A stretch of 32,463 bases of DNA from Acidobacteriota bacterium. Lineage in GTDB: Bacteria > Acidobacteriota > Blastocatellia > Chloracidobacteriales > Chloracidobacteriaceae. This document shows positions 7,901-31,333 of the stretch, piece after piece. The first letter of the stretch is position 1, and each line of letters starts with the position of its first letter. Position numbers and translations under genes: made by a program. Where the stretch lies: contig JACQXX010000147.1 in assembly GCA_016208495.1 (NCBI GenBank), forward strand, positions 1-32,463, read 5' to 3'. The notes beneath the pieces are model-generated. The model worked only from the letters and a program-made list of their open reading frames with translations. It was not told the origin of the DNA and ran no database searches.

Positions 7901-10453
7901 CTGCCGGTCGCGCAGGACCCGCAAGGCATCTTCGCGGGTGGATTTCAGTCGTGATTCAACTTCGTCGGCTTTGACGCTGTCTTCGAGTTTGCGCAAGGCG
8001 TCAACCAGCTCGCGGACTTTGGCCACCATTTGATCAGCCGCGAAATAGGCGTTTAATTCATCGGCGTTTTTAAAGGTCGAAAGGCGGCGTTTGATTCCCT
8101 GCAACACGCGATCTGCGGCCTGAAACGTGTGTTCGGCGCGACGCTGGCGCTGTTCCACCAGCATTTGTCGTTTGGCCTGGAAGGCTTCCATCACGTCATC
8201 GCGTTTTTCAGCCAACTGAATCTGAAACTCATCAAATTCGCTGAACCGGCTTTCGATTTCTTCCAGCCTGAGCAGGAGCGTGCCCATCTGGGCATCACAC
8301 TTTTCGGGTGAATCAGCCAGGCTGATCGCACTGGAAACACTCTGAGCAAAAAGTTTGAACTGGGCGCCAAATTCGGCCACGCTTTCCCGCGACAGCAGCT
8401 CCTTGCGGCGGGCTTCGACAATCGCACGCGCGCGGTTGAGCCCACCCATCACCTCGGAAATGTCTTCCAGGATTTTGGTTCTGACCAGCGTGTCGTCAAT
8501 CTTTAAGCCGCCGATGACTTCGGTGAGTAAATCGAGTTCGTCCCCGATTTGCTTGACCGTAGTGCGAAGCGGGTTGATGGCGAGCACCGTGGTCACTGGT
8601 TCAGCCTCGGCCACCAGTTTGGCAATTTTGAGATGGTAGGGCTGAAGCGCTTTGTCGCCTCTCAAAAATTCAACGGCTCTGGTACTGACCCGGTCAAATT
8701 GCGCGACAACCTCTTGCTCTAGCTTTTCCAACTGGGACAGGTCTATGTAGCGAACTTCCCGAAGTGAAATCAAATGCCCACGCTGCCCGCGCAATTGCGT
8801 CAGGGCGTTGACATACGCATCCAGGGTTGTCCAGTTGGTCAGCCTCAGCGAACCAATCAGTTCGCGCAGCCCGGCAGTGGCTTTTTCGGTTGCCTCGGCA
8901 GCCTGTTTACGTAATTCCTCAACCTTTTCAAATTCATCAACGATCAACTCCGCCGTTGCCCGAATCTCGGTCAGAAGGGTGCCAATATTGCTCGCCTGGT
9001 CGTTATCAAGCCAGAAATAACTGTCCAGCGTTCGGCTGACCGTGGCAATCAGGTCTTCGTAGACCTGGGTGGTGGGAATTTGCTCGACAATTAACTTTTG
9101 AATACTGAGTGCATCGGAAATACCGCGCACCAGTTCAGCGTTCCCGATGCTTTCCAGAAATGTTCCGGTTGAGGGTGCGGCGGCGGCATATTCGTCACTG
9201 GTAAAGGGCGTCTGCCAGATTTGCATCGGATGGACGCGAGTGGGTTCGGCCTGCGCCTTGAGTACCACCAGTCGGCCATCATCAAACTTGCTGTACCCGT
9301 GACAATCAATCGGCAGCGCGACTTCTTTGCGAATCTTGTTGTATGGCAGTAAAACATTCCGGCCTTCGTCCCGGCGGTGAAAGATATAGAGCACGTCTTC
9401 GCCGTTGGGTGAGCGCACCATTCGTTTGTATTCCATTCCGGTGCTTTCGCCATAGGTTTTGTACTCGCCGGATTGCAGATAATACCCGCCGGGGAAAATG
9501 ATGCCGTGGTCTTCGGGAAGCTGGACACACGCCTGGCCAATTGCATCAATGCGAACCACGGTTTTGGTTCGGAGATTAAAGACAAAATAGCGGTAGTGTT
9601 TTTCACGAAACGGCAGAATTTTAAGCAGAATCAAACCGCCCAGTTTGGCAAAATATACCTCGGCATCATCAAGCGACTGGCGCGGGTCTTCGACCGGTTC
9701 TTCATAAATGCCAGTGCCGGATTCGGTGTTATCTTCGATTTTAATGGTCAGGTTGCCACCGATGGTTTCGACAAATACCTGATCGAGAATTGAAATATGC
9801 GGAAACTTCCCGCCAACCTGATCTTCACGGGTGGTTTGGGTCCACACAAAGTCGTGAGATGGCGGATAGACGTGATCTCGCTCGCCCCGATTATCGAGGT
9901 ACGTCACTTTTCCTTTCGGATCAACCGCCCAGCGAAAAACCTTGATGTCTTTGAGCAGCGCCCCAGTTTGGAAAATGGCCAGGATTTTCCCTTCGACAAC
10001 TCGAAGTTGCAGCAATCTGGCTTCTTTGTAATAGCGATAGAGTTCCTGAAAGTCCTTCACAAACTGTGGGTGACTCAGGAAATCCTCATCTGACCCCGGA
10101 GGAACGGGTTGAAAGGCAAAACCGGTTTCCGTTTTTTCAAGCCAGTGCAGACTCAACACATCTTCGACATTGGTTTCCGTCTTCAGCCCAATAAAGACGT
10201 TGTAGCCAAAGAGCATATACCGCCCGGCGTTGATGATGTCGCGCGCAATGCAATTGTGGACGGTGCGAATGCGTTCGCTGCCGATGATGGCCAGCTCTGA
10301 GCTACCGAACAAGTCCAATCGCCGCTGATTGAGCGCGTTGGTTTTCTCAGCCACAATCTTCGCCTGAGCCAGCAACCGGTCGCGAATGACCTCGTATGTG
10401 CCGCGATCAATTTCCTGGCCACCTGTGGTTGGAGGAATGTGTGGTGTGGTCAT
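4985..10453 (-). CDS. Giant coiled-coil AAA+ ATPase of the flotillin locus
   Basis: An 1822-residue protein. The first ~450 residues are mixed alpha/beta with many WxxP and GGYYLQSGEY-like patches that look like a beta-propeller or similar fold. Residues ~480-900 are long charged coiled coils (for example VEELRKQAAEATEKATAGLREL). Near 1290-1300 lies a Walker A (SPPGYGKTTLMEY), followed by a Walker B (NVMLYIDDIQHTHPEF) and a sensor-1-like AGNPYT. A C-terminal region rich in leucine and glutamine follows. From memory, databases label this family 'DNA repair ATPase', but nothing in the sequence demonstrates repair. It lies 188 nt downstream of the flotillin gene on the same strand, so co-transcription is likely. 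The leader is unusual: heptamer repeats begin 6 nt before the ATG and no Shine-Dalgarno is visible. The ATPase call is firm; the function is unknown. Confidence 0.78.
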   Translation of the reverse strand: MTTPHIPPTTGGQEIDRGTYEVIRDRLLAQAKIVAEKTNALNQRRLDLFGSSELAIIGSERIRTVHNCIARDIINAGRYMLFGYNVFIGLKTETNVEDVLSLHWLEKTETGFAFQPVPPGSDEDFLSHPQFVKDFQELYRYYKEARLLQLRVVEGKILAIFQTGALLKDIKVFRWAVDPKGKVTYLDNRGERDHVYPPSHDFVWTQTTREDQVGGKFPHISILDQVFVETIGGNLTIKIEDNTESGTGIYEEPVEDPRQSLDDAEVYFAKLGGLILLKILPFREKHYRYFVFNLRTKTVVRIDAIGQACVQLPEDHGIIFPGGYYLQSGEYKTYGESTGMEYKRMVRSPNGEDVLYIFHRRDEGRNVLLPYNKIRKEVALPIDCHGYSKFDDGRLVVLKAQAEPTRVHPMQIWQTPFTSDEYAAAAPSTGTFLESIGNAELVRGISDALSIQKLIVEQIPTTQVYEDLIATVSRTLDSYFWLDNDQASNIGTLLTEIRATAELIVDEFEKVEELRKQAAEATEKATAGLRELIGSLRLTNWTTLDAYVNALTQLRGQRGHLISLREVRYIDLSQLEKLEQEVVAQFDRVSTRAVEFLRGDKALQPYHLKIAKLVAEAEPVTTVLAINPLRTTVKQIGDELDLLTEVIGGLKIDDTLVRTKILEDISEVMGGLNRARAIVEARRKELLSRESVAEFGAQFKLFAQSVSSAISLADSPEKCDAQMGTLLLRLEEIESRFSEFDEFQIQLAEKRDDVMEAFQAKRQMLVEQRQRRAEHTFQAADRVLQGIKRRLSTFKNADELNAYFAADQMVAKVRELVDALRKLEDSVKADEVESRLKSTREDALRVLRDRQDLFEGAAVVKFGRHRLSVNTQPLELTMLPRQGVMMFHLSGTDFFQPVADAGFDATRELWEQSLVSETPDVYRSEYLAFCLLSDAESGNHHLSLEKLRDAELSETGLIGAVRAYAETRYDEGYERGIHDTDAALILARVLQLYRTAGRLRFAPGPRALACLFWAFLEDDLKREKWGRQARSLARLRTAFGSTPAIESLIGELSVAISGFLTAHSIPFQHQDIQFAGTYLFEEICRPDRVFVTSGEAVTLSQSFTDHLNLNGQWQTFAEDLAELRGDLGQSYRLASAWLDAFVATATIEKVVETRLAVAEAVALLLTDGRLERVQSSTIPGLVVDGLLGQHPRLSERRLMVRLDEFLMRLGRFRTDRVPTFRAYQEQRHALLRQERERLRLDEFTPKVMSSFVRNRLINDVYLPLIGDNLAKQIGVIGDGKRTDLMGMLLLISPPGYGKTTLMEYIASRLGLVFMKINGPALGHKVTSLDPMEAPNATARQEIEKLNLALEMGNNVMLYIDDIQHTHPEFLQKFISLCDAQRKIEGVWNGQTQTYDLRGKRFCVCMAGNPYTESGQKFQIPDMLANRSDTYNLGDVLTGRETLFELSYLENALTSNRVLAPLTTREPGDVYKLVQMAKGEAVQSDQLSHGYSGVEIGEIVSVFKNLLQIQQTVLKVNQQYIRSASQDDAYRTEPPFKLQGSYRNMNKLAEKVVAVMNPDELENLLDDHYLGESQTLTTSAEHNLLKLAELRGRMSPEQTSRWNEIKRGFARVKVMGGKDDDPVVKVTGQIGLVSERLEDICAALTSLHSVTALQTEQSARSNDLSTYLTKLDQTLNVLRRMQTTPATDPTLTSLLNSVASGLEKVITHQATPPSIEVKSATTNGAELAPYLNKLDQTLEKLATTSAKTAIVQTLSPGVYDLLNEMLVNVESALLPMVRSLAREVSTTPGVETKISTQLDRTLKNLDMLKDLLKALRKIETGKG

Positions 10454-20509: not shown

Positions 20510-21930
20510 TGGCGCTGATTGGGTTGCTGGTTCCCGGATTGCTTGGATTTGCTATCGTCGGGTTGCTCTGGCCAAAAGAAGAAAAACTCGGTTCATCAAT
20601 GCTTTTGAAAATTTGCCTGGCGTTTGGATTAGGGTCTGGGTTGACATCGGGTACCTACTTTTTATGGCTGGCACTGATCGGAGTCCCAGGGTCTCTATAC
20701 TATGGCGTGGAGGTGGCACTGACTCTGCTTTTGCTGGCAACACTTGGGTATATCGCTCGGAAGAATGCGGCGACCAGTTCGGTTTCCTGCGTTTTGGATG
20801 TGCCGCCAACCACCTCATCAAACGCAGTTTTGTCCTACAGTTTTGTGATTGCCCTGGGAGTTGCAGCTATTTCTTTCTTCTGTTTGCTGGTCTGGAATCC
20901 ACACGGAGAGTGGGATGGCTGGGCGATCTGGAACCTTCGGGCCAGGTATTTGTTTCGGAGCGGCCTTGAGTGGAAACAGACATTTTCGCCCATCTTGAAA
21001 TGGTCGCACCCAGATTATCCGCTTGGAATTCCAGCCAGTATTTCCCGATGCTGGACAATGATGAGGGCTGAAACGGTTGCTGTTTCTCAATGTCTGGCAA
21101 CAGTGTACACGGCGGGAACAGTAGGATTGCTTTTTGCCGCCCTGGCACGGCTCAGGTCCCAAAGCCAGGCCATGCTCGCAGTTCTGGTCTTAATTGGATT
21201 TCCGCTTTTTGTGGCTCAGGGAGCGTCACAGTATGCCGATGTTCCCCTGGGGTTTTTCTACCTGGCGACTGTGGTGTTGATTGGTTTGTACTATGACTTG
21301 AGCGAACGTAACCCTGGCCTGCTCGTCCTGGCTGGAATGATGGCCGGACTGGCGGCCTGGACCAAAAATGAGGGAATTCCCTTTTTAATGATTGCTTTCT
21401 TTGCCCTGGCTGTCGGGTTAACCTGGAAAAAAGAAGTCAACTCAGCAGTGAGTCACTTTCTGACGTTTTGCCTGGGCGCCCTGCCCGGCATTCTGATCCT
21501 GATCTATTTTAAACTCTACCTGGCGCCTCCAAATTACCTGACCCAGAATTCGGGACTGGGTGACAAACTGGCCAGAGTCATTGATCCAGGACGTATTTTG
21601 CAGATTCTGCAGGCTTTTTTTTCTGAAATTACATTTGCCTACCTGATTCCGGTGTTGGTGGTATATGCCCTGGTTGTCGGGTTCCGCCTGGAATCACGAC
21701 TCATCCGACCACTCCTTATTTCAGCCGGTATTTTGCTGTTCACCCTCATCGGGTATTTTTTGGTTTATCTCATCACTCCACTTGACCTCACCTGGCAACT
21801 GGCCAACTCAGTCAACCGGTTATTTATGCAATTATGGCCGAGCTTTCTGTTTTTGTTCTTTTTGATGGTCAGTGGCCCCGAACAGGAAAAGAAGCCAGAC
21901 CTGGAACCATTGACTCCTCCTTCAACTTAA
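20509..21930 (+). CDS. GT-C-like polytopic membrane protein, probable glycosyltransferase
   Basis: A 473-residue protein with about 11 hydrophobic segments. After four helices comes the loop NPHGEWDGWAIWNLRARYLF, whose Asp136 sits where GT-C enzymes carry the catalytic acidic residue. Later segments AGMMAGLAAWTKNEGIPFLM and QGASQYADVPLGFFYLA are typical of bacterial PMT_2/ArnT-like proteins, where the K-N-E patch follows a helix. Translation is coupled to the preceding small gene. Its stop TAA overlaps the rtcR stop on the other strand at 21927-21930, leaving no room for a dedicated terminator. Substrate unknown. Confidence 0.7.
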   Translation: MALIGLLVPGLLGFAIVGLLWPKEEKLGSSMLLKICLAFGLGSGLTSGTYFLWLALIGVPGSLYYGVEVALTLLLLATLGYIARKNAATSSVSCVLDVPPTTSSNAVLSYSFVIALGVAAISFFCLLVWNPHGEWDGWAIWNLRARYLFRSGLEWKQTFSPILKWSHPDYPLGIPASISRCWTMMRAETVAVSQCLATVYTAGTVGLLFAALARLRSQSQAMLAVLVLIGFPLFVAQGASQYADVPLGFFYLATVVLIGLYYDLSERNPGLLVLAGMMAGLAAWTKNEGIPFLMIAFFALAVGLTWKKEVNSAVSHFLTFCLGALPGILILIYFKLYLAPPNYLTQNSGLGDKLARVIDPGRILQILQAFFSEITFAYLIPVLVVYALVVGFRLESRLIRPLLISAGILLFTLIGYFLVYLITPLDLTWQLANSVNRLFMQLWPSFLFLFFLMVSGPEQEKKPDLEPLTPPST

Positions 21931-23540
21931 CCCTGGTCAGTTCCAGTCGTTATATCTGCCCAGGAAAGATCAAACTTCGCGAGGTATTTCCGCAACCGGT
22001 CGGCGTCGTTGGCATTTTTCTTCTCAAGGCGCGAATGGGCAAAGAGTTCGCGGCCAGCCTCGGAAATGGATCGGGCTTCACGACATACTTTGAGCACATC
22101 TTCGAGCTGAACCCGGTCAAACCGATCCAGGGTAGCGCTTCGTTCTGGTCCGAGCACTTTTTCAACCAGCGAATCGGCTTTCCCCTCCGATGGCAATCGC
22201 CACGATTCGCGGAGTCGGCCCAGCTCCTCTTCAACTTCGGCGAGCGAAATCCGGCCTCCATCGGCCAGGGTCGCCATGCGGGTAATGGCGGCGTTTAAAT
22301 CGCGAAAATTCCCGGCCCAGCGGCCTTCCACCGAAGTGGCAAATGATAAAAATCGCTGGCGGGCTTCTTTATTGATCGTCACCCGGTTGCCCGTAAACCG
22401 GGCGAATTGTTCGAGTTCATATTGCAGATTCGGTTCGATATCTTCAAACCGGTCTTTGAGTCCCGGTAGCCGAAAGGTCCAGAGATTGATGCGGGCCAGT
22501 AAATCTTCGCGGAAGTTGCCTTCGTGGACCTGACTGGTCAAGTCACGGTTGGTACCGGCAATCAACAGGAAATCGCTGCGGACTTCGTGATCGGCACCCA
22601 GCGGCATAAACACCTTTTCTTCCAGCGCCCGCAGCAGCATCGCCTGTTCGTCAACGCCCAGCTCTCCGATTTCATCCAGAAACAGCAATCCACCATCCGC
22701 CACACGCAGCAATCCGGGCCGGTTTTGCATCGCTCCGGTAAATGCACCTTTGACGTGGCCAAACAACGTAGACATCGCCGTATCGCCCCGCAGTGTCGCG
22801 CAGTTGACATCCACAAACTTCCCCGAAACCAGATGCCGCCCTTTTTTCAACTCATAAATGCGTTTGGCAAGCTGCGACTTCCCTGCCCCCGTCGGTCCCA
22901 TCAACAGAATTGGCGCCCGCGACACAATCGCCACCCGTTCGATTTGCTCGATCATCCGGTTAAAGCTGGCGTTACGGGTTTCAATGCCTGACTTGAGAAA
23001 ACTCTGGCTTTCCTGCTGTTCCTGGCGAAACCGCGAAGCAAGCTGGTCATACTTCGAAAGATCCAGGTCAATAACACTAAATTCGCCCGGATGATCGCCT
23101 CGAAACCGTTTGGACGGCGAGGTTTGAAGCAAGTTTGCCGGAAAGTGACGCGATTCAGTCAGCAAAAACATACAGATTTGCGCCACGTGCGTCCCGGTCG
23201 TGAGATGGATCAGATAGTCCTCGTGTTCGATATCAAACGGATACTGGCGGGCAAAATCGTGGAGCGTCCCGTACACCTGGCCAAAATCCCAGGGATCTTC
23301 GAAATCAATTTTCACCAGCCTGACTTCGGTTTCAGGTGACACTGACTGGATGTCGCCTTTGATGGTTTCGGCCAGTTCGGCGAACTTTTCCTGATAGAGC
23401 AACTCAAACCGATGGACCAGCAGGTTTTCGTGCTGGCACACGGCCACTGTTGGCCGCCAGCGTTCCCATCGCGTCGGACCTTTCCCGCCATCCAGTGTTG
23501 GCCCAAGCAACCCAATCACGACTGTTTGCAGAACGGTCAT
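21927..23540 (-). CDS. rtcR: RtcR, CARF-domain sigma54 activator of the RNA-repair operon
   Basis: A 537-residue bacterial enhancer-binding protein. Residues 1-180 are the RtcR CARF-type sensor domain (TVVIGLLGPTLDGGKGP, and YLIHLTTGTHVAQICMFLL near 109-127). The AAA+ domain has Walker A GPTGAGKS (215-222), the sigma54-contacting GAFTGA loop (265-270) and Walker B LLFLDE (285-290). The C-terminal ~60 residues contain the DNA-binding helix-turn-helix (VCREARSISEAGRELF). In enterobacteria the CARF domain restrains the ATPase until an RNA-end ligand is bound; RtcR then activates rtcBA transcription. Here it is divergent from a matching -24/-12 promoter 145 bp away, so the regulatory circuit is complete in the window. 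All catalytic motifs are intact. The ligand cannot be told from sequence. Confidence 0.95.
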   Translation of the reverse strand: MTVLQTVVIGLLGPTLDGGKGPTRWERWRPTVAVCQHENLLVHRFELLYQEKFAELAETIKGDIQSVSPETEVRLVKIDFEDPWDFGQVYGTLHDFARQYPFDIEHEDYLIHLTTGTHVAQICMFLLTESRHFPANLLQTSPSKRFRGDHPGEFSVIDLDLSKYDQLASRFRQEQQESQSFLKSGIETRNASFNRMIEQIERVAIVSRAPILLMGPTGAGKSQLAKRIYELKKGRHLVSGKFVDVNCATLRGDTAMSTLFGHVKGAFTGAMQNRPGLLRVADGGLLFLDEIGELGVDEQAMLLRALEEKVFMPLGADHEVRSDFLLIAGTNRDLTSQVHEGNFREDLLARINLWTFRLPGLKDRFEDIEPNLQYELEQFARFTGNRVTINKEARQRFLSFATSVEGRWAGNFRDLNAAITRMATLADGGRISLAEVEEELGRLRESWRLPSEGKADSLVEKVLGPERSATLDRFDRVQLEDVLKVCREARSISEAGRELFAHSRLEKKNANDADRLRKYLAKFDLSWADITTGTDQG

Positions 23541-23684: not shown

Positions 23685-23700
23685 TGGCACGCCCTGTGCA
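23685..23700 (+). promoter_or_regulatory. Sigma54 (-24/-12) promoter of the ro60-Y RNA-rtcB-rtcA operon
   Basis: TGGCACGCCCTGTGCA matches the sigma54 consensus TGGCACG-N4-TTGCW with one mismatch. The invariant GG (23686-23687) and GC (23698-23699) are exactly 12 bp apart. The predicted start is near 23711, giving a 148-nt leader to ro60. The divergent neighbour is RtcR, the expected activator. The upstream 23541-23684 stretch is very AT-rich and should hold the RtcR enhancer sites, but I could not define them. Confidence 0.88.
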
Positions 23701-23858: not shown

Positions 23859-25412
23859 ATGGCAAACAAAAACTTGTTTCAGTCACTTCCTGGCACCTTG
23901 ATTCCACAGACCAACGCCCTCAACAACGAGCGTGTACGGGCGTACCGCTTCAGCCCAAAACATCAGTTGGCGCAATACACGATCACTGGCTGTTTGAACA
24001 ACACATTTTATGCGTCAGCCGGACAGCAACTTGAGACCGTGTTGGAACTGTGCAAAACCATTGAACCCGAGTTCATTGCGAAAACCGCCGTGTACTGCCG
24101 TGAGCGTGGTTTTATGAAAGATATGCCGGCGCTGTTGACAGCGGTGCTTTCAACCAAAGACCGCGATGCCTTTGCCCGTGTGTTCCCTCGGGTGATTGAT
24201 AACGGCAAAATGCTCCGCAACTTCGTGCAGATGATGCGCTCAGGTGTGGTAGGCCGCAAATCACTGGGTTCATTGCCAAAACGGATGGTGCGCGAGTGGT
24301 TTGAGACTCGCACCGAAGATCAAATCTTCGATGCGTCGGTTGGTCAGAGCCCATCGTTTGCCGATATTTTGAAAATGGTTCACCCAAAACCACGCAACGA
24401 GCAGCGCGAAGCGTTGTTTGGCTACCTGATCGGTCGCGACATCAACAAAAACCTGTTGCCGGACCGCATCAAACTGTTTGAAGCCTACAAAGCCGGATAC
24501 CGGGCGGAAGTCCCAGACATTCCGTTCCAGATGTTGACGGCTCTGGAGTTGAAAACACCTGAATGGACAGCCATTGCCCGGAACGCTCCGTGGCAGATGA
24601 CCCGGATGAACCTGAACACATTTGCGCGGCATGGTGTATTTGCTCAGGAAGGAATGACTGAGTTGATTGCCAACCGGCTGCGTGATCCAAAAGCGGTGAA
24701 ACGGTCACGTGTGTTCCCATACCAGTTGATGACCGCGTTTATGTCAGCCGATGCCAGCGTTCCAGTCGCGGTTCGGGATGCGTTGCAAGATGCAATGGAA
24801 ATTGCCCTCGACAACGTGCCTGAGTTCAATGGAAAAGTGTATGTCCTGCCTGACGTGTCAGGTTCGATGTCATCACCGGTAACGGGCTACCGTCCAGGAG
24901 CAACCAGCGTGGTTCGGTGTATTGACGTAGCGGCACTGGTCGCAGCCGCCGTGTTGCGCCAGAATCCTCAAGCGGAAGTGATTCCATTTGAACACCGCGT
25001 CGTCAACATTGACATCAACCGGCGTGACTCAGTGATGACCAACGCCAAAAAACTGGCCTCAATTGGTGGTGGCGGAACGAGCTGCAGCGCGCCACTGGCG
25101 TTGCTCAACAGCCAGAAAGCCAAAGGTGATTTGGTGATCTACGTCTCAGACAACGAGTCCTGGGTAGACGCCAGCCGGGGTCGCGGAACAGCGACCATGA
25201 AAGAATGGGCAGTGTTCAAACAGCGCAACCCACGGGCGCGCATGGTGTGCATTGACATTCAGCCATACGGCACAACGCAGGCAGCCGAGGCCGAGGACAT
25301 CCTCAACATCGGCGGCTTCTCAGACCAGGTCTTTGACGTAATCAGCCTGTTCGCTCAAAACCAACTGGTGGCCGAGCACTGGGTTGGCGTCATCAATCAG
25401 GTGCAAATCTGA
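23859..25412 (+). CDS. rsr: Ro60 orthologue (TROVE domain plus vWA), Y RNA-binding protein
   Basis: A 517-residue Ro60/Rsr protein. Family members form a HEAT-repeat ring that binds Y RNA on its outside and the ends of misfolded or damaged RNA in its cavity. Bacterial Rsr works with exonucleases such as PNPase in RNA maturation and stress decay. The TROVE ring covers about 15-320 (for example YTITGCLNNTFYAS, ETVLELCKTIEPEFIAKTAVYCRERGFMKDMPALL split, TPEWTAIARNAPWQMTRMNL). The vWA domain (about 325-505) has a full MIDAS: DVSGS (Asp332, Ser334, Ser336), Thr407 in GGTS and Asp431 in SDNES. AAGGAG lies 9 nt before the ATG. It is the first gene after the sigma54 promoter, and the six Y RNAs lie immediately downstream, as in other rsr-yrl loci. 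Confidence 0.95.
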   Translation: MANKNLFQSLPGTLIPQTNALNNERVRAYRFSPKHQLAQYTITGCLNNTFYASAGQQLETVLELCKTIEPEFIAKTAVYCRERGFMKDMPALLTAVLSTKDRDAFARVFPRVIDNGKMLRNFVQMMRSGVVGRKSLGSLPKRMVREWFETRTEDQIFDASVGQSPSFADILKMVHPKPRNEQREALFGYLIGRDINKNLLPDRIKLFEAYKAGYRAEVPDIPFQMLTALELKTPEWTAIARNAPWQMTRMNLNTFARHGVFAQEGMTELIANRLRDPKAVKRSRVFPYQLMTAFMSADASVPVAVRDALQDAMEIALDNVPEFNGKVYVLPDVSGSMSSPVTGYRPGATSVVRCIDVAALVAAAVLRQNPQAEVIPFEHRVVNIDINRRDSVMTNAKKLASIGGGGTSCSAPLALLNSQKAKGDLVIYVSDNESWVDASRGRGTATMKEWAVFKQRNPRARMVCIDIQPYGTTQAAEAEDILNIGGFSDQVFDVISLFAQNQLVAEHWVGVINQVQI

Positions 25413-25415
25413 AAT

Positions 25416-25584
25416 CAGGGTTCGGGGTTGAAAAACCAGGGTTCAGGGTTCAGGGTTCAGGGTTCCGTTTCCCAGACTTCAAGGAAAATGTTCAACCCAA
25501 ATCAAGCTTCAGTACTGTTGTTACAACTCTGAAGCACAAGAACCAATTGAATTGAGAGACCCTGAACCCTGAACCCTGAACCCT
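25416..25584. repeat. Facing heptamer blocks (GGGTTCA)n and (CCCTGAA)n after ro60
   Basis: Forward heptamers lie at 25416-25429 and 25437-25465, and inverted heptamers at 25559-25584, flanking a 93-bp unique stretch. The blocks are complementary and could close a long hairpin between the ro60 stop and the first Y RNA. Confidence 0.88.
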
Positions 25585-25590
25585 AAAATT

Positions 25591-25655
25591 GGGCCGAATG
25601 CTGCCTGGGACTACATTTGATTAATGAACTGTCTCTTGCATTTCCTTGTCGGCCC
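25591..25655 (+). ncRNA. Minimal Y RNA lacking a tRNA-like domain (Y0)
   Basis: The 7-bp terminal stem GGGCCGA (25591-25597) / UCGGCCC (25649-25655) is perfect. It is followed by the conserved AUGC, and the second helix is formed by GGGAC (25606-25611 region) with GUCUC, plus UGC/GCA flanking a 2x2 internal loop. The UACAU and CCUUGUCG elements shared by all six RNAs are present. Only a ~19-nt loop replaces the ~90-nt tRNA-like domain of its neighbours. By analogy with Y RNA architecture this is a bare Ro60-binding module. It could be a processing end point, a competitor for Ro60, or an ancestor or remnant of the array. Confidence 0.75.
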
Positions 25656-25667
25656 TCCTTTTACATC

Positions 25668-25852
25668 AATTATGAATTATGAATTATGAATTATGAGTGA
25701 TACCGTCCTGGTCATATCATCGTGCCAGGGAAAAGTTAAACCTTTGAGAAAAATGTCTTTTCCCGCAATTCTGACCAAATAATAGTAAAAGTTAGTTTAT
25801 GACACCTTCACAAAATAACTTTTTCATAATTCATAATTCATAATTCATAATT
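25668..25852. repeat. Large inverted repeat of AATTATG heptamers enclosing a nested hairpin
   Basis: Four perfect AATTATG copies (25668-25695) face four perfect inverted copies (CATAATT, 25825-25852), giving 28-bp arms around 129 nt. Within the loop, GGGAAAAG (25728-25735) can pair with CTTTTCCC (25757-25764). It sits exactly between the minimal Y RNA and the first tRNA-like Y RNA. It resembles a barrier or terminator-like structure, though no U-run follows the inner hairpin. Confidence 0.8.
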
Positions 25853-25863
25853 CAAAAAGCCTG

Positions 25864-26006
25864 GTGACGAATGCTTGAAGGAACTACATTTAATTTGCCG
25901 GTCCCCGGTTCGAGTCCGGGCTGCGCCGCCACGATGGCGCAGTAGCTCAGTTGGTAGAGCAGCAGACTCGCTTCGGCGGGTTGTTTCTTCACCCCCTTGT
26001 CGTCAC
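25864..26006 (+). ncRNA. yrlA: Y RNA 1 with permuted Met-like tRNA domain (YrlA type)
   Basis: Terminal Ro60-binding stem GUGACGA (25864-25870) / UCGUCAC (26000-26006), and second stem UGAAGGAAC / GUUUCUUCA. The tRNA-like domain is in permuted order: T arm CCCGG-UUCGAGU-CCGGG (25904-25920), acceptor strand CUGCGCC, loop GCCACGAU, acceptor strand GGCGCAG (25936-25942), D arm GCUC-AGUUGGUA-GAGC (25945-25960). The acceptor loop keeps a GCCA that looks like discriminator plus CCA. GCAGA (25962-25966) can still pair with UUUGC (25894-25898) as an anticodon stem. The overall sequence most resembles elongator tRNA-Met. A UUCG-capped hairpin (25967-25980) is inserted where the anticodon loop would be. 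T and D loops keep UUC and GG, so the elbow contact should form. Confidence 0.9.
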
Positions 26007-26031
26007 TTCCTTCCAAATAACCAGAGAAAAA

Positions 26032-26105
26032 GTTCAGAGTCCCGCCTTCAGGCGGAATGAAATGATCGGGAAGACCTTTTACCGCCTAAAGGCGGGACTC
26101 TGAAC
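26032..26105. repeat. 74-bp palindromic REP/MITE-like element
   Basis: Arms of 24 bp (26032-26055 and 26082-26105) are inverted copies with one mismatch. Each arm contains its own small hairpin CCGCC-TTCA-GGCGG. The element sits between Y RNA 1 and Y RNA 2. It has no coding capacity. The nested palindrome is typical of REP-type repeats mobilised in trans, but copies elsewhere cannot be seen from this window. Confidence 0.8.
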
Positions 26106-26117
26106 AAGTTGAGTTTC

Positions 26118-26250
26118 GGTGACGAATGCCTGAGGAACTACATAGGGGCCCGGAGGCGCCTGGTTCGACTCCAGGGTGTGCGACGTGCTCGCACACAAGC
26201 TCAGCGGTTGAGCGTCGGGAAAAAAGGTTTCTCACCACCTTGTCGTCACC
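26118..26250 (+). ncRNA. yrlA: Y RNA 2 with permuted tRNA-like domain
   Basis: Terminal stem GGUGACGA / UCGUCACC (perfect), second stem UGAGGAAC / GUUUCUCA (8 bp). Permuted tRNA domain: T arm CCUGG-UUCGACU-CCAGG (26159-26175), acceptor GUGUGCG-ACGUGCU-CGCACAC (26176-26196), D arm GCUC-AGCGGUU-GAGC (26199-26213), and anticodon-like stem UCGGG (26215-26219) with CCCGG (26149-26153). The acceptor loop does not keep CCA. I cannot name the parental tRNA with confidence. Elbow nucleotides (GG in the D loop, UUC in the T loop) are intact. Confidence 0.9.
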
Positions 26251-26333
26251 TTAAAATACAGGGCTAGGGGCTGAGGGCTGAAGACAATCCAAATATATCA
26301 GCCATATAATTTTAAAAACTGATCGGGTTGAGT

Positions 26334-26657
26334 ATGTCGAGTAGTGAAAACACCTGCGAACTCTGTAGCCGAACGGTCCGCCGCGTGACCAGACATCATT
26401 TGATCCCACGGGCGCGGCATAAGGTCTATAAACGCAAGAAAGATTTCGATCATTCGGTGCTGCATTGCGTGATTCAAACCTGTAGCCCGTGCCATCGCAA
26501 CCTGCATGCGCATTTGACCGAACGCGAACTGGCGACCAGCTACAACACGATTGAAAAGCTCTTGACCCATCCTGGTGTGAAGAATTTTACCGACTGGGTT
26601 GCCACCAAACCTGATATGGCGCTCAGAGTTCGACGGTCCAGGGCTAAAGGCAGTTAG
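26334..26657 (+). CDS. Small HNH-type zinc protein inside the Y RNA array
   Basis: A 107-residue protein of the HNH endonuclease superfamily. CELC (Cys8, Cys11) and CSPCHRNLHAHL supply a four-cysteine zinc site, and RHHLIPRARHK carries the HH of the catalytic motif. The tail TYNTIEKLLTHP-like segment and FTDWVATKPD are common in this small stand-alone HNH family. The ATG at 26334 was chosen over a TTG two codons upstream; the ribosome site is weak. Heptamer repeats begin at its stop codon. It lies between Y RNA 2 and Y RNA 3, so it is probably carried on the same transcript. Whether it cuts DNA, RNA or the Y RNAs themselves is unknown. Confidence 0.8.
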   Translation: MSSSENTCELCSRTVRRVTRHHLIPRARHKVYKRKKDFDHSVLHCVIQTCSPCHRNLHAHLTERELATSYNTIEKLLTHPGVKNFTDWVATKPDMALRVRRSRAKGS

Positions 26658-26799
26658 GGTTCGGGGTTCGGGGTTCGGGGTTCGGGGTTCGGGGTTCGGG
26701 GTTCGGGGTTCTTCGAATTGAGTTTCTTTTCGTCCTGTTTGTCCCTTTTGTCCTTTTTGTCTTTATTTCAAACCCTGAACCCTGAACCCTGAACCCTGA
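26657..26799. repeat. Composite heptamer repeat between HNH gene and Y RNA 3
   Basis: (GGGTTCG)n from 26657 to 26711, a linker with TTCGAATT and four GTCC-TTTT units, then inverted (CCCTGAA)n at 26771-26799. The inverted block ends 4 nt before Y RNA 3. It has the same design as 10460-10639 and 28951-29107. Confidence 0.9.
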
Positions 26800-26802
26800 T
26801 TT

Positions 26803-26946
26803 GCGGCGAATGCCAGAGGAACTACATAAAGATTCTGGTTCACGAAAGTGAGTTCAGGTGCAAATCCTGACGCCTCCATCACTTACGGAGGTGTGGCGGA
26901 ACAGTAGACGCGCTGGAAAAACCGTTTCTCGCCCCCTTGTCGCCGC
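26803..26946 (+). ncRNA. yrlA: Y RNA 3 with permuted Leu-like tRNA domain
   Basis: Terminal stem GCGGCGA / UCGCCGC differs from Y RNA 1 at two base pairs on both strands, a clean compensatory change. Second stem GAGGAAC / GUUUCUC. The tRNA part is class II: a variable arm UUCAC-GAAA-GUGAG (26839-26852), T arm UCAGG-UGCAAAU-CCUGA (26854-26870), acceptor CGCCUCC-loop-GGAGGUG (26871-26893), D arm GCG-GAACAGUAGA-CGC. This matches tRNA-Leu closely, including GGCGG and UAGACGCGCUGG on the 5' half. The acceptor loop begins AUCA, like a mutated CCA end. The T loop is UGC instead of UUC and the D loop lacks GG. The anticodon-stem strands no longer complement. Confidence 0.88.
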
Positions 26947-27067
26947 TTTCAACCGAATGAAGAATGAAGAATGAAGAATGAAGAATGAAGAATTGAGAAT
27001 GAAGAATTGAGAATGAAGAATTTCGAAATCCCTGAACCCTGAACCCTGAACCCTGAACCCTGATTTG
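26947..27067. repeat. Spacer of heptamers (GAATGAA)n and (CCCTGAA)n between Y RNAs 3 and 4
   Basis: It begins TTTCAACCGAATGAAG, runs through about nine GAATGAA/GAATTGA-type 7-bp units, then TTTCGAAAT and about five CCCTGAA units ending CCCTGATT. It is nearly identical to the spacer at 27211-27303 apart from heptamer copy number. Confidence 0.9.
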
Positions 27068-27210
27068 GTAGCGAATGCCTGAGGAACTACATTCCAGGGT
27101 GGAAATCTCGGGTGCGATTCCCGAGTCTGATTGTGAGCAATCAGGTCGTCTAAAAGCAGGACGCCACTTGCGCCATTGGCGCTGTCCGTTTCTCAAAACC
27201 TTGTCGCTAC
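27068..27210 (+). ncRNA. yrlA: Y RNA 4 with permuted Glu/Gln-like tRNA domain
   Basis: Terminal stem GUAGCGA / UCGCUAC (perfect), second stem UGAGGAAC / GUUUCUCA. T arm CUCGGG-UGCGAUU-CCCGAG (27107-27125), acceptor UCUGAUU-GUGAGC-AAUCAGG (27126-27145), D arm GUC-UAAAAGCAG-GAC (27148-27162) as in the UCGUCUA-type tRNAs for Glu and Gln. Anticodon-like stem CCACU (27164-27168) / GGUGG (27098-27102). An extra hairpin GCGCC-AUU-GGCGC (27170-27182) replaces the anticodon loop. As in Y RNA 3, the T loop is UGC and the D loop has AG in place of GG. Confidence 0.88.
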
Positions 27211-27303
27211 TTCAAACCGAATGAAGAATGAAGAATTGAGAATGAAGAATTTCGAAATCCCTGAACCCTGAACCCTGAACCCTGAACCCTGAACCCTGAT
27301 TCA
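27211..27303. repeat. Spacer of heptamers between Y RNAs 4 and 5
   Basis: Same order as 26947-27067: CAAACCGAATGAAG, GAATGAA/GAATTGA units, TTTCGAAAT, then CCCTGAA units ending CCCTGATT directly before the next Y RNA. The two spacers mark Y RNAs 3-5 as a tandem duplication. Confidence 0.9.
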
Positions 27304-27450
27304 GGTGCGAATGCCATCGGAAGTACATGCCTGTAACGCACGAGGTCTGGGTTCGAATCCCAGCGATCCCCCCACTATCTTCCATCCAGTATGGGGATTG
27401 TAGTTTAATGGCTAGAACGCGTAAAAACCTTTCGACCCTTTTGTCGCACC
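27304..27450 (+). ncRNA. yrlA: Y RNA 5 with permuted Asp-like tRNA domain
   Basis: Terminal stem GGUGCGA / UCGCACC (perfect). Second stem UCGGAAG (27317-27323) / CUUUCGA (27429-27435), which replaces both strands of the UGAGGAAC/GUUUCUCA helix of its neighbours. T arm CUGGG-UUCGAAU-CCCAG (27347-27363), acceptor CGAUCCC / GGGAUUG closed by a long loop (27371-27393) that begins CCCA. D arm GUUU-AAUGGCUA-GAAC (27403-27418), and a 4-bp anticodon-like stem GCGU / ACGC. The stretch CCUGUAACGC resembles the tRNA-Asp anticodon arm with GUC changed to GUA. Elbow nucleotides GG and UUC are intact. A short T-run (CTCTTTTTAG) follows and might end the transcript of this RNA. Confidence 0.88.
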
Positions 27451-27543: not shown

Positions 27544-28950
27544 ATGAAGAAAAAAATTGATTCCAAGCGCCACCCAATTGCGAACCACCGTCTGTCTCCG
27601 GCTGAAATGGCCGGGATGTTGACCGATGATACCGACGAACTGATTGAAGATCCCGCGCCGGTCCGGAAAAAGAAGGCCGAAGCGCTCGAGAAAATTGCCA
27701 TGACTGAGACACTCCAGGACACAACCCCGCCAGGATATAACCTGATTGAAACCAAAGACGGCGTTCCGATTAAAGCCTGGACCAAAGGCGTTCCGATTGA
27801 ACAGGAAGCCCAGCGCCAGTTGCGCAACATTTCGCAATTGCCGTTTGTTTACAAGTGGGTTGCCGCCATGCCGGATGTGCATTGGGGCATCGGCGCCACG
27901 GTCGGAAGCGTGATTCCAACCAAAGGCGCGATCATTCCGGCGGCTGTGGGTGTGGATATTGGTTGCGGGATGTGTGCGGTCCAGACGACGTTAAATGCAA
28001 ATAATCTTCCTGATAACCTTCATAAACTCCGTGAGTGTATCGAGCTGGCTGTTCCACATGGACGAACCCACAACGGAGGCCCCGGTGATCGAGGTGCCTG
28101 GGGAACGCCGCCGCCGCGTCAGATTGAGACATGGACCCAGCTTAAAGAAGGCTATGACCGAATTGTGGCCAAACATTCGAAATTGAGCCGAGGGAATGAT
28201 ATCAATCATTTAGGGACACTCGGAACGGGAAATCACTTCATCGAACTGTGTCTGGATGAAGCCAACAACGTGTGGATTATGCTCCATAGCGGGTCACGTG
28301 GCGTCGGTAACCGCATCGGTTCATACTTTATCGAGTTGGCCAAACTGGACATGATGCGCAACCTTCATAACCTGCCGGACAAGGATCTGGCGTATTTCAT
28401 GGAAGGCGCCGTGCATTTTGACGACTACGTTGAGGCCGTATCCTGGGCGCAAAACTATGCTCGCTGGAATCGGAAGTTGATGTTAGAGCAAATCATTGAT
28501 GCGATGACTGATTCAGGTGAACTCCCTGAGTTCTCTCCGTCAGTTGAAGTCGTGAATTGCCATCACAACTATGTTCAGATGGAACAACATTTTGGCGAAA
28601 CAGTGTATGTAACTCGCAAAGGTGCTGTCCGCGCAGGTGTCGGTGATATGGGCATCATCCCAGGAAGTATGGGGGCGCGATCCTATATCGTGCGCGGAAA
28701 GGGGAACCCCGAGAGCTTTCATTCGTGCAGCCACGGTGCCGGACGGGCCATGTCGCGTAGTGCAGCGAAAAAACGATTTACCGTCGAAGATCACGTCCGG
28801 GCGACTGCTGGGGTTGAATGTCGCAAAGACAAGGATGTGATTGATGAAACACCGGCGGCATACAAGGACATTGATGCCGTGATGCACGCCCAATCTGACC
28901 TGGTCGAGGTCGTGCATACCTTAAAGCAGGTGTTGTGTGTGAAGGGGTAG
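27544..28950 (+). CDS. rtcB: RtcB, GTP-dependent RNA ligase
   Basis: A 468-residue 3'-5' ligase that joins 2',3'-cyclic-phosphate or 3'-phosphate ends to 5'-OH ends with GTP and Mn2+. Motifs: PDVHWGIGATVGSVIPTKGA, VGVDIGCGM (Asp138, Cys141), GTGNHF (His231), HSGSRG (His248), NCHHNY (His340), and the guanylylation motif SCSHGAGRAMSR (His397, equivalent to E. coli His337). E. coli RtcB has about 408 residues. Here ~55 residues of charged sequence (KKKIDSKRH, RKKKAEALEK) precede the conserved start near ETKDGVPIKAW. ATG 27544 lacks a ribosome site; an internal ATG at 27700 would give a standard-length enzyme, but the upstream codons look coding. It lies 93 nt after the last Y RNA and belongs to the sigma54 operon. 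Confidence 0.96.
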   Translation: MKKKIDSKRHPIANHRLSPAEMAGMLTDDTDELIEDPAPVRKKKAEALEKIAMTETLQDTTPPGYNLIETKDGVPIKAWTKGVPIEQEAQRQLRNISQLPFVYKWVAAMPDVHWGIGATVGSVIPTKGAIIPAAVGVDIGCGMCAVQTTLNANNLPDNLHKLRECIELAVPHGRTHNGGPGDRGAWGTPPPRQIETWTQLKEGYDRIVAKHSKLSRGNDINHLGTLGTGNHFIELCLDEANNVWIMLHSGSRGVGNRIGSYFIELAKLDMMRNLHNLPDKDLAYFMEGAVHFDDYVEAVSWAQNYARWNRKLMLEQIIDAMTDSGELPEFSPSVEVVNCHHNYVQMEQHFGETVYVTRKGAVRAGVGDMGIIPGSMGARSYIVRGKGNPESFHSCSHGAGRAMSRSAAKKRFTVEDHVRATAGVECRKDKDVIDETPAAYKDIDAVMHAQSDLVEVVHTLKQVLCVKG

Positions 28951-29223: not shown

Positions 29224-29362
29224 TACGGAGCCGCCCATTTGTAAGGTAACACCAGGTTTTGTTTATTTCTTGGACACGCATCGGGCTCACTGAGTGAAAA
29301 ACCTGTCTTTCCCTCAGCCCTTAGCCCCAAGCCCGAAAGTGTGCTGCCAGGAGGATAGAGTC

Positions 29363-30211
29363 ATGAAAAGAGAAGTAATTATTAAAGACACCCATCGTGG
29401 GTTGTATTATGAAGATGGCGTCCTCACCAAGCTTCTGGAAGGCGGGCGCTATGTGATTCCACGTCATTTTAATCTTGGGTTTTACCGCCGTCCAAAAGTG
29501 GAAATCGTCCTGGTGGACATCCGCGAACGAGATTTGACGATTAAAGGTCAGGAAATTTTGACTTCAGACAAGGTCGCGATTCGGGTGAGCATCGTGGTGC
29601 AATTCCGGGTGACAGATCCAAAAGCCGCACTGCACGAAGTTCAAAACTACGAAGATCGCCTCTACAGCGACGTTCAACTGGCCGCCCGTCGGTCTCTGGC
29701 ATCAATGGCGCTCGAAGAAATTTTGACCAACCGCAACCGCCTCAACGAAGACATCCGGCACGATGTGAAAGAAGCGGCAGCGAGCTACGGCGTGGCTATC
29801 CTGCGCGCTGACGTGAAGGATTTGATCTTCCCAGGGAACTTGCAGGAAATTATGAACCGCGTGCTGGCAGCCGAACGCATGAGCCAGGCTCAGTTGATCG
29901 AAGCCCGAACCAAGGCTGAAGTTCAGCAAATTGATGCGCAGGCCCGGTCTCAGTCACAACATATCGAAGCCGAAACGCAGGCTGACAATCGTCGCACCAT
30001 TGCCCAAAGTGAAGCTGCGGCCCACACCCTCAAAACCGAAGCCGAAATTCGAGCCCTTCGCGACCGTGCCGAAGCAGCAGACGCATACAACCAGCATCCA
30101 GCACTGATGCGGCTACAGGAACTTGAAACCCTGCGTGAGCTTTCACGCACGGCCAACGCCCGCATTTACATCGGGTTTGATAAGCATCAGGAACTGGCAA
30201 GCGGCGAGTAG
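29363..30211 (+). CDS. Slipin (SPFH/band-7) protein of the RNA-repair operon
   Basis: A 282-residue stomatin-like protein. The SPFH domain occupies about 1-190 (GLYYEDGVLTKLLEGGRYVIPR, VEIVLVDIRERDLTIKGQEIL). It is followed by a short Ala/Glu/Gln-rich coiled coil (about 180-245) and a helical tail (ALMRLQELETLRELS). AGGAGG lies 8 nt before ATG 29363; a GTG 23 codons upstream lacks a ribosome site and encodes unlikely sequence. No N-terminal membrane hairpin is present, so it may be soluble or depend on a partner for membrane contact. Its place between rtcB and rtcA in a sigma54 operon suggests a role in RNA-damage response, perhaps scaffolding Ro60 or RtcB. That is inference. Confidence 0.87.
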   Translation: MKREVIIKDTHRGLYYEDGVLTKLLEGGRYVIPRHFNLGFYRRPKVEIVLVDIRERDLTIKGQEILTSDKVAIRVSIVVQFRVTDPKAALHEVQNYEDRLYSDVQLAARRSLASMALEEILTNRNRLNEDIRHDVKEAAASYGVAILRADVKDLIFPGNLQEIMNRVLAAERMSQAQLIEARTKAEVQQIDAQARSQSQHIEAETQADNRRTIAQSEAAAHTLKTEAEIRALRDRAEAADAYNQHPALMRLQELETLRELSRTANARIYIGFDKHQELASGE

Positions 30212-30307
30212 TCAGTACCGCCTGCGTGAGCGGGTGGGTTGTAGAGATCAAAGAGCGAGGCTATGCTACTCGCTATTCGCAACTCACAATTCTTTAAGGA
30301 GTTTTCT

Positions 30308-31333
30308 GTGATTACCATTGACGGATCGTTCGGAGAAGGCGGCGGTCAAATTCTGCGCTCGGCGCTCGGATTGTCGCTTGTCACCGGAAAGCCATTCAAA
30401 ATTGAAAAAATTCGGGCTGGTCGGAAGAATCCAGGACTCCTTCGCCAGCATTTGACCGCTGTGAACGCCGCCACTCAGGTTGGCAATGCCGAAGCCGAAG
30501 GCGCCTCCCTTGGGTCAAAAACCCTGGTGTTCCAGCCTGGAACAGTCAATCCTGGCAACTTCCGGTTTGCAGTCGGAACGGCGGGCAGTGCGACACTGGT
30601 CCTGCAAACGATCCTCCCGGCGCTCCTGACGGTGACCGAACGAACCGAACTCACCCTTGAAGGCGGCACTCATAACCCGTTTGCGCCACCGTTTGATTTT
30701 TTGTCGAAAGCGTTTCTCCCACGGTTGAACAAGATGGGGCCGAAGGTTTCAGTTCGATTGGACCGACCAGGGTTTTATCCGGCTGGCGGAGGCAAGTTCC
30801 ACGTCACGATTGAACCTTCTCCGGATGGACTCCTTGGCTTCCACTTACCCGAACGCGGCAAAGTGCTCAATCGCCGCGTGAAAGCTTCGGTTGCCTGTTT
30901 ACCTCCGGAAATTGCAGATCGCGAATTGACCGAAATTTCGCGCAAAATGTCGCTCGAAAAGCACCACCTGGAAACCGAAGTGTTTGAAAATTCGCATGGG
31001 CCAGGCAATGTTGTGACCATCGAAATCGAAAGCGAACACGTCACCGAAGTCTTCACCGGCTTTGGCGAAAAAGGCGTCCGGGCGGAATCGGTGGCCGACA
31101 ATGCGGTGAAACTGGTGCGGCGCTATCTGACGTCGGATGTGCCAGTTGGCGAATATCTGGCCGATCAGTTGTTGATTCCGCTGGCGCTGGCCGGAGAAGG
31201 TTCATTCGTCACGCTTCCACCTTCGCGCCATACCACGACCAATATCGAAATCATTAAGTTGTTCCTGGATGTGGAAATTACGACTTCACAGTTGAATAAA
31301 ACGGCCTGGGAGGTTAGAGTGGCTGCAAAGTAA
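30308..31333 (+). CDS. rtcA: RtcA, RNA 3'-terminal phosphate cyclase
   Basis: A 341-residue enzyme that uses ATP to convert RNA 3'-phosphates to 2',3'-cyclic phosphates, with adenylylation of a histidine. It starts MITIDGSFGEGGGQILRSAL, the classic RtcA N-terminus. It continues with GRKNPGLLRQHLTAV, GTAGSATLVLQTILPALL and RPGFYPAGGGKF, and near the end has PPSRHTTTNIEIIKLF, where His308 matches the E. coli catalytic His309. Length equals that of E. coli RtcA (~338). The start is GTG 30308 with AAGGAG 6 nt upstream; an in-frame ATG 15 codons earlier has no ribosome site. It is the last recognisable gene of the RNA-repair operon, 96 nt after the slipin. Confidence 0.95.
   Translation: MITIDGSFGEGGGQILRSALGLSLVTGKPFKIEKIRAGRKNPGLLRQHLTAVNAATQVGNAEAEGASLGSKTLVFQPGTVNPGNFRFAVGTAGSATLVLQTILPALLTVTERTELTLEGGTHNPFAPPFDFLSKAFLPRLNKMGPKVSVRLDRPGFYPAGGGKFHVTIEPSPDGLLGFHLPERGKVLNRRVKASVACLPPEIADRELTEISRKMSLEKHHLETEVFENSHGPGNVVTIEIESEHVTEVFTGFGEKGVRAESVADNAVKLVRRYLTSDVPVGEYLADQLLIPLALAGEGSFVTLPPSRHTTTNIEIIKLFLDVEITTSQLNKTAWEVRVAAK

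Follow-up and report, generated by a model that had tools for sequence, protein, structure and literature searches.

Six Ro60-linked Y RNAs in an acidobacterial RNA-repair operon, five of them with apparently different tRNA-like bodies

Contig JACQXX010000147.1 (C147) of the Acidobacteriota assembly GCA_016208495.1, a genome of 8.4 Mb that is 99% complete, was analyzed over a stretch of 32,463 nucleotides, hereafter the window. It contains a gene encoding Ro60 followed by an array of six Y RNAs, and the genes of the region are arranged in the following order: rtcR on the reverse strand and then, on the forward strand, the Ro60 gene, the Y RNA array with an HNH gene inside it, rtcB, an SPFH gene and rtcA. 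An earlier note on this sequence had placed six Y RNAs between Ro60 and rtcB, at positions 25591-27450, and had stressed their number. It did not describe the permuted transfer RNA (tRNA) that five of the six contain, and the diversity of these tRNA-like modules is the unusual feature of the array.

The rtcR gene (21927..23540, minus strand) encodes a sigma-54 activator with an RtcR sensor domain (NCBIfam RNA_repair_RtcR, 822 bits against a cut-off of 650; Pfam RtcR) and is divergent from the Ro60 operon. Upstream of Ro60 lies a sigma-54-like candidate promoter (23685..23700, plus strand) with the pattern TGGCAC-N6-TGCA, the sigma-54 consensus; the pattern has two matches in the window, where 0.16 are expected, and one of them fits between rtcR and Ro60. 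The Ro60 (Rsr) gene (23859..25412, plus strand) is the sole Ro60 match in the genome at E ≤0.001. Its product has TROVE and vWA domains (Pfam TROVE and vWA_Ro60), its best solved relative is Rsr (Protein Data Bank entry 2nvo, E 6.7e-27), and at residue 332 it carries the sequence DVSGS, the MIDAS motif. The HNH-type gene (26328..26657, plus strand), which sits between the third and fourth Y RNAs and had also been reported in the earlier note, is real but weakly scored: it is HlpB-like, with 57.7 bits for NCBIfam HlpB (cut-off 130) and an E-value of 0.036 for Pfam HNH. A homologue with 64% identity is present inside the Y RNA array of G001, a genome of the same family and the best-matching relative with the locus. 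Downstream of the array, all on the plus strand, are the genes for the RNA ligase RtcB (27544..28950; Pfam RtcB, 429 bits), an SPFH/Band 7 protein (29294..30211; Pfam Band_7) and the RNA 3'-phosphate cyclase RtcA (30263..31333; NCBIfam, 438 bits, cut-off 352). A divergent rtcR, rtcB and rtcA, the features expected of an RtcR-controlled RNA-repair operon, are all there. The rsr-yrlBA-rtcBA operon of S. Typhimurium, as described in PMC7790460, has the same divergent RtcR and the same order of Ro60, Y RNAs, RtcB and RtcA, whereas the Y RNAs number six in the window and two in S. Typhimurium, and the window also has an HNH gene within its array and an SPFH gene between RtcB and RtcA. Searches of phage and plasmid collections returned only short matches, several of them at tRNAs.

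The six elements lie on the plus strand at 25591..25655 (Y1), 25864..26006 (Y2), 26119..26249 (Y3), 26803..26946 (Y4), 27068..27210 (Y5) and 27304..27450 (Y6). Each has a terminal stem of 7/7 Watson-Crick pairs together with UACAU and (C/U)UUGUCG (6/6), as the earlier note had stated, and the Ro60-contact motifs CGAAUG...UUGUCG accompany the terminal stem in all six, with a linked Ro60 gene. Our final detector, which required a 7-nt stem, a CGAAUG-type 5' motif, a UGUCG-type 3' motif and a second helix, picked out exactly these six on the plus strand of the window; in 40 base-shuffles of 8 kb it had no match. Under slightly looser settings it had two matches in 30 whole-window shuffles; a first version had been too loose (47 matches in 20 shuffles), and a stricter second version, with five matches in 100 whole-window shuffles, missed Y1. 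The genome has four occurrences of the 5' motif pattern, all of them inside the array, and the pattern is found in 28/162 genomes of the class, against 2/162 for a control read backward. Given the stem, the motifs, the linked Ro60 and the RtcR/RtcB/RtcA context, Ro60-binding-type Y RNAs are the best-fitting reading, and the six elements are very probably Y RNAs. We infer from the sequence that the RNAs of the array are expressed and bound by Ro60.

The covariance-model check that the earlier note had proposed gave a divided answer. The Rfam models YrlA or YrlB match all six places (E 7.6e-8 to 0.21), the YrlA match of Y2 being out of register, and at E ≤1 the only other match in the window was to one miRNA model; none of the scores, however, exceeds the gathering score. 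Y2-Y6 score 25.4-47.6 bits (the highest being Y3) against 69 for YrlA (RF02553) and are not formal family members. Y1, a short YrlB-like Y RNA without a tRNA module, shares length, stem and motifs with YrlB (RF02565) and scores 35.6 bits against 97. Six RNAs in 5/8 other Ro60 loci that were scanned do exceed the RF02553 gathering score. Tandem tRNA genes of the same genome score as high as 29 bits with the YrlA model, so that the model alone is insufficient for Y4 (25 bits) and Y6 (30 bits); the terminal stem and motifs are independent of the model, and they settle Y4 and Y6 as Y RNAs. The host also has odd tRNA gene clusters away from the locus (G000:C68:10270-10572 and C110:23084-23530), the first of which likewise yields weak YrlA matches as tandem tRNAs.

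The six RNAs fold with z-scores of -3.9 (Y1) to -1.6 relative to shuffles, Y6 (-1.6) and Y3 (-1.8) folding only slightly better than these. Unconstrained folding recovers the terminal stem in 6/6; in Y2-Y6 it also recovers the hairpins of the T arm and of the acceptor. The second helix forms in these folds in Y2, Y5 and Y6 only: in Y1 it is interrupted (3+5 bp), contrary to the 7-9 bp that had been claimed for all six, and Y3 and Y4 fold without it.

Between UACAU and the 3' strand of the second helix, Y2-Y6 contain, in this order, the 3' strand of an anticodon-like stem, a variable loop, a T arm, the 3' acceptor strand, a closing loop, the 5' acceptor strand, a D arm and the 5' strand of the anticodon-like stem. 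This is the layout of a tRNA that is circularly permuted, its anticodon loop being the point of opening and its acceptor ends being joined, as in YrlA, with which Y2-Y6 share the order of T arm, acceptor and D arm, the terminal Ro60 stem, the CGAAUG/CUUGUCG motifs and the linkage to Ro60 and rtcBA. A permuted tRNA-like domain opened at the anticodon, the hallmark of the YrlA type, is present in 5/5 of Y2-Y6; Y1 has no tRNA domain. A permuted-cloverleaf parse gives 19-21 pairs in each of Y2-Y6, with the acceptor paired at 7/7 positions. For each of them, 0/1000 dinucleotide shuffles reach the observed parse score, and a parse of any kind was obtained in 1/5000. For Y5 and Y6 the top-scoring parse, with the D arm one base off register in Y5 and a 14-base variable loop in Y6, differs from the version made by eye; by eye, the anticodon-like stem has five pairs in Y2-Y5. 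We consider it highly probable that Y2-Y6 mimic tRNA.

The cloverleaf-like parse raises the question of whether working tRNAs are processed from the modules, which would then be permuted tRNA genes, the more so as CCA follows directly after the acceptor strand in Y2 (GCCA) and Y6 (CCCA). Among 83 parsed Y RNA modules, NCCA stands in this place in 12, where 1.3 are expected (1 in 64; the rows are not independent), and this is possibly a trace of tRNA 3' ends. Against this, a tRNA gene has an anticodon arm with a loop, and in the modules the Y stem occupies the place of that loop; moreover, the host has 45 tRNA matches elsewhere, and ARAGORN reports no tRNA gene in the window (0). Working tRNAs were therefore rejected for lack of an anticodon loop and are very improbable.

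The bodies seem to come from different tRNAs, as judged by matching the modules to 645 tRNAs, which comprise those of the host and those found in Ro60 loci. Y2 matches Lys, Met, Phe and Thr tRNAs with scores of 71-66 and is of class I. Y4 is of class II (Ser/Leu-like): it has the corresponding D arm and a long variable arm, predicted as the hairpin TCAC-GAAA-GTGA (26840..26851, plus strand), which also appears in the fold, and its top match is a tRNA-Ser(gct) from the Ro60-side tRNA array of G426 (score 61), followed by Leu at 49, the best host tRNA reaching 43 (Leu). For Y5, the seven best of the 645 are all tRNA-Gln, with a top score of 53 and a best host score of 39; the best-host scores come from slightly different module pieces. 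Y3, of class I, and Y6, with the D arm GTTT..GAAC, are tRNA-like by their parses. The D arm does not start with TAGCTCA in 4/5 window modules (Y3 by one base) compared with 9/78 elsewhere (Fisher p 0.0018), two of these nine being doubtful parses; in a differently selected candidate set the proportion of deviating arms was 14/91, some of them doubtful. Relative to YrlA, the window thus has five such RNAs at one locus with differing bodies, including a class II body with a variable arm and a Gln-like one. Recent capture of host tRNAs was rejected, since identities are merely moderate and Y4 and Y5 are closer to array tRNAs of other species; the array set is far larger than the host set, so that this preference is partly expected, and the best match of Y2 is a host tRNA. 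Further Leu-like class II modules were seen by eye within Y RNAs of other genomes (L086:9746-9898 and L183:1497-1661).

Sequence comparison with relatives bears on whether the copies are relics, that is, unexpressed and decaying remains of a lost tRNA array and of repeats. Most spacers of the array (25437-27299 and flanks) contain heptamer tandem repeats (GGGTTCG, CCCTGAA, GAATTAT and GAATGAA), the Ro60-side tRNA array of some relatives is absent here, and the weak folding of Y3 and Y6 would also fit decay. On the other hand, all six terminal stems are perfect, the motifs are intact, and homologues in G001 keep the pairing. Thus, Y2 aligns end to end with two G001 Y RNAs, and all three keep the pairs of the acceptor (7/7), T stem (5/5), anticodon-like stem (5/5) and D stem (4/4), with the helix strands chosen by hand. 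Changes on both sides of a pair are found at 5/7 acceptor, 2/5 T-stem and 3/5 extra-hairpin positions; one G001 copy has 8/9 pairs in the second helix and 4/5 in the extra hairpin. A Y RNA in G011, a genome of the same taxonomic order, is related to Y6. We therefore regard decaying relics as improbable.

A second distinctive feature concerns the tRNA elbow. The second base of the T loop, pseudouridine 55 (Psi55), pairs with G18 in ordinary tRNA (PMC4810234), whereas Y4 and Y5 have A18-G55 in place of G18-U55, a further difference from YrlA. In Y4 the T arm with G55 (TGCAAAT) is at 26854..26870 and the D arm with A18 at 26896-26911; in Y5 these are at 27108..27124 (TGCGATT) and 27148-27162, all on the plus strand. 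Among 187 unique Y RNA candidates, 83 could be parsed with a D arm, and A18 is found in 8/8 modules with G55 but in 0/74 with U55, which have G (71) or T (3); the remaining row, with A55 in a 186-nt candidate, was taken as a false parse. Thus the elbow pair 18-55 covaries in Y RNA modules: G55 occurs only with A18, and U55 with G18 or T18. The eight G55 modules come from six genomes, some of them close kin, and represent perhaps three or four lineages. A second parser, run on the same candidates, likewise gave A18 with G55 in 8/8, and A18 with U55 in 2/77, both of which consist of a T arm plus acceptor and lack a D arm (L063 and L065). An earlier candidate set contained five G55/A18 modules and one G55/C18 module, a minus-strand candidate of L073 that was taken as false. 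Outside the 8/8 stand a Y RNA of L181, with G55 and, by eye, A18 in an unparsed D arm, and one of L132, with G55 and no D arm.

Host tRNAs have U55 and GG in 46/46 cases and A18-G55 in 0/46. Among the tRNAs of Ro60 loci, 12 have G55, of which by eye 11 have A18 and one C18; a thirteenth, a tRNA-His of L129, was dropped as a bad parse. These counts were made by hand because the second parser set 62 U55 array tRNAs at A18, the ones with long D loops mostly keeping GG further upstream. The rule is not strict for array tRNAs, since at least one, a tRNA-Leu(tag) of L072, has A18 with U55 and no GG. At L063:165-2431, in a record with the title Pedosphaera, five tRNA-like genes lie 5.6-7.8 kb upstream of the Ro60 gene; their anticodons are those of Leu and Gln, their variable loops are short and their elbows are altered (A18 with G55), and in one of them C19/G56 replaces G19/C56. 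The UGxRA form of T loop has been described for the interdigitated T-loops of T-box RNAs (PMC7583486), so the elbow swap has a structural precedent outside tRNA. Since G55 replaces U55, RNAs of the Y4/Y5 type would be unable to carry Psi55. What is new about the array is how diverse its tRNA bodies are, together with the A18-G55 elbow, although diverse types within one array may have been reported before.

The number of Y RNAs is less distinctive. Among the Ro60 loci surveyed, the best 80 of 90 and taken from named genomes, 7, 16, 21, 10, 18, 7 and 1 loci have 0, 1, 2, 3, 4, 5 and 6 Y RNAs, respectively; these counts are lower bounds because contig ends cut some loci. At least three are present in 36/80, which makes such numbers common in this Ro60 clade, and four to six in 26/80, and G011 has seven. 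The array of the window is thus at the high end, as the term "expanded version" in the earlier note implied, but it is not unique, and copy number was dropped as the main point. What some of the relatives have in addition is a tRNA array: 15/80 Ro60 loci contain at least 10 tRNA genes, the actual numbers being 12-34. In these 15 loci 12-33 tRNAs lie upstream on the Ro60 strand, the last one ending 68-514 bases before Ro60 in 14/15, and the arrays cover up to 20-21 amino-acid types according to ARAGORN (L066, L069, L070, L076, L078 and ten others). Six hand-picked relatives have 66-83 tRNA matches per genome compared with 45 in the window genome, so that the Ro60-side arrays look like a second tRNA set. 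Further arrays were seen in L174 (G162; 30 tRNAs, distant Ro60) and on a viral contig, L158 (28 tRNAs); L227 and L228 have 32 and 34 tRNAs and a Y RNA motif, with no Ro60 within the fetched piece. A literature search, made partly with loose terms and with results only partly examined, returned no paper that joins tRNA arrays to bacterial Ro60.

How might these RNAs act? Published work provides several starting points: RtcR binds tRNA fragments, competitive inhibition of the nuclease by YrlA has been named as one possibility (both PMC7790460), and two tRNA-modifying enzymes accept YrlA as a substrate (PMC8394870). The reading that we favor, and which we consider evenly poised between right and wrong, is that the array belongs to an RNA-repair operon under RtcR/sigma-54 control and provides it with six Y RNAs that Ro60 binds and that present several tRNA look-alikes, likely as decoys or docking sites for enzymes that act on damaged tRNA. 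The terminal stem and the CGAAUG/UUGUCG motifs would form the grip for Ro60, and the far end of Y2-Y6 would display the tRNA body, with the entering Y stem in place of the anticodon loop and with a loop joining the 5' and 3' acceptor strands. Lacking an anticodon loop and free ends, the look-alikes would be neither cut at the anticodon nor charged and, because the bodies resemble different tRNA types, the operon would make a small repertoire of them. On tRNA cleavage, tRNA halves would induce the operon and Ro60 ribonucleoproteins would be made, on which Y2-Y6 might compete for, or dock, proteins that recognize tRNA bodies, be they ribotoxins or enzymes of repair or decay from the operon itself; several body types would cover several targets. 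Induction by tRNA halves is our supposition, and the decoy or docking role of Y2-Y6 is, taken by itself, a tentative proposal that we would rate somewhat below an even chance.

The principal alternative is that every Y RNA tethers Ro60 to a ring-shaped exonuclease, PNPase for example, the tRNA fold being no more than a handle, the copies redundant and their differences the result of drift. Tethering of Ro60 (Rsr) to PNPase for RNA decay is the role described for the Y RNA of D. radiodurans (PMC7790460 and PMC8394870), and arrays of two to five mostly TAGCTCA-type Y RNAs are common in relatives. Drift would break helices, yet acceptor and T stems carry two-sided changes and the elbow bases are swapped in concert, and the role of a handle does not need class II and Gln-type bodies. 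We therefore consider a pure tether possible but rather doubtful. Several points nevertheless weigh against the decoy or docking reading. PNPase tethering as in D. radiodurans would need no diversity of tRNA types, and the diversity of the modules could be drift in redundant copies. Every Rfam match is under its gathering score, the unconstrained folds of Y3 and Y4 swap the second helix for other pairs, the anticodon-like stem of Y6 has by eye only 3/5 pairs with an ordinary variable loop, and neither Y3 nor Y6 can be matched to a particular tRNA type. Finally, the D-arm and elbow comparisons depend on the parser, and their rows are phylogenetically non-independent.

A wider and more speculative possibility, which we think unlikely but worth stating, is that Ro60 islands serve inducible tRNA replacement, providing both spare tRNAs and look-alikes that cannot be cut. 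The spares would have been lost here and several bodies kept in Y RNAs, and the A18-G55 elbow would hide an RNA from enzymes that read the normal elbow. An origin of the Y RNA bodies from spare tRNAs is suggested because the closest resemblance of Y4 and Y5 is to tRNAs from the Ro60 arrays of other species and not to any host tRNA, and the A18-G55 elbow is seen in Y4/Y5 and in some array tRNAs. A possible parallel is the trn operon of Anabaena, a stress-induced tRNA array that shares a repressor with rtcB, slipin and HNH genes (PMC10272220). The window shares RtcB, SPFH and HNH genes with this trn/TrcR regulon, and some relatives pair a tRNA array with Ro60 and Y RNAs; the regulon, in contrast, is under a repressor and not RtcR, and the window has no tRNA array. 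Ro60 and rsr are absent from the main text of that paper. The Ro60 loci with large tRNA arrays in Acidobacteriota would point to a wider system of damage replacement.

According to PMC7790460, the studies presented there did not deal with the roles of Rsr and Y RNAs in the RNA-repair operon. Array members that mimic different tRNAs make the decoy idea testable member by member, as every Y RNA carries a prediction of the tRNA, or the tRNA-binding enzyme, that it would protect or capture, and the elbow swap offers a clean mutational handle, since G18/U55 can be restored.

Some minor observations concern resemblances to ribosomal RNA (rRNA) and other forms of Y RNA. Pieces of rRNA in the Y RNAs of the window were considered and rejected, the matches being of 11 bases only and at chance level. 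The 3' motif stretch of Y1, TTCCTTGTCGG, is identical to E. coli 23S 1939-1949, and in that rRNA CGAATG comes about 20 bases beyond the TTCCTTGTCGG match; both are possibly chance. A 202-nt Y RNA of G011 (L171 reverse complement 8435-8636, equal to L055 minus strand 3797-3998) has 26 nt that match 23S rRNA 1909-1934, the helix 69 region, at 92% identity (E 2.9e-5 for that query, one of 187 queries), and extending this match along the 23S rRNA did no better than shuffles. A recurring type of the form ~GGRTGAATGC...AGGACTACAT with non-tRNA hairpins was seen in L056, L061, L064, L066, L069, L077 and L083, and no Rfam match was listed at these places in the four of the seven loci that were scanned. 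By eye, three Y RNAs resemble tRNAs opened at the D loop with the anticodon arm kept (L163 of G022, reverse complement 8796-8937; L178, minus strand 1497-1646; L079:7721-7815), and two of them have a 7-nt loop (CTAAGAA and CTGAAAC).

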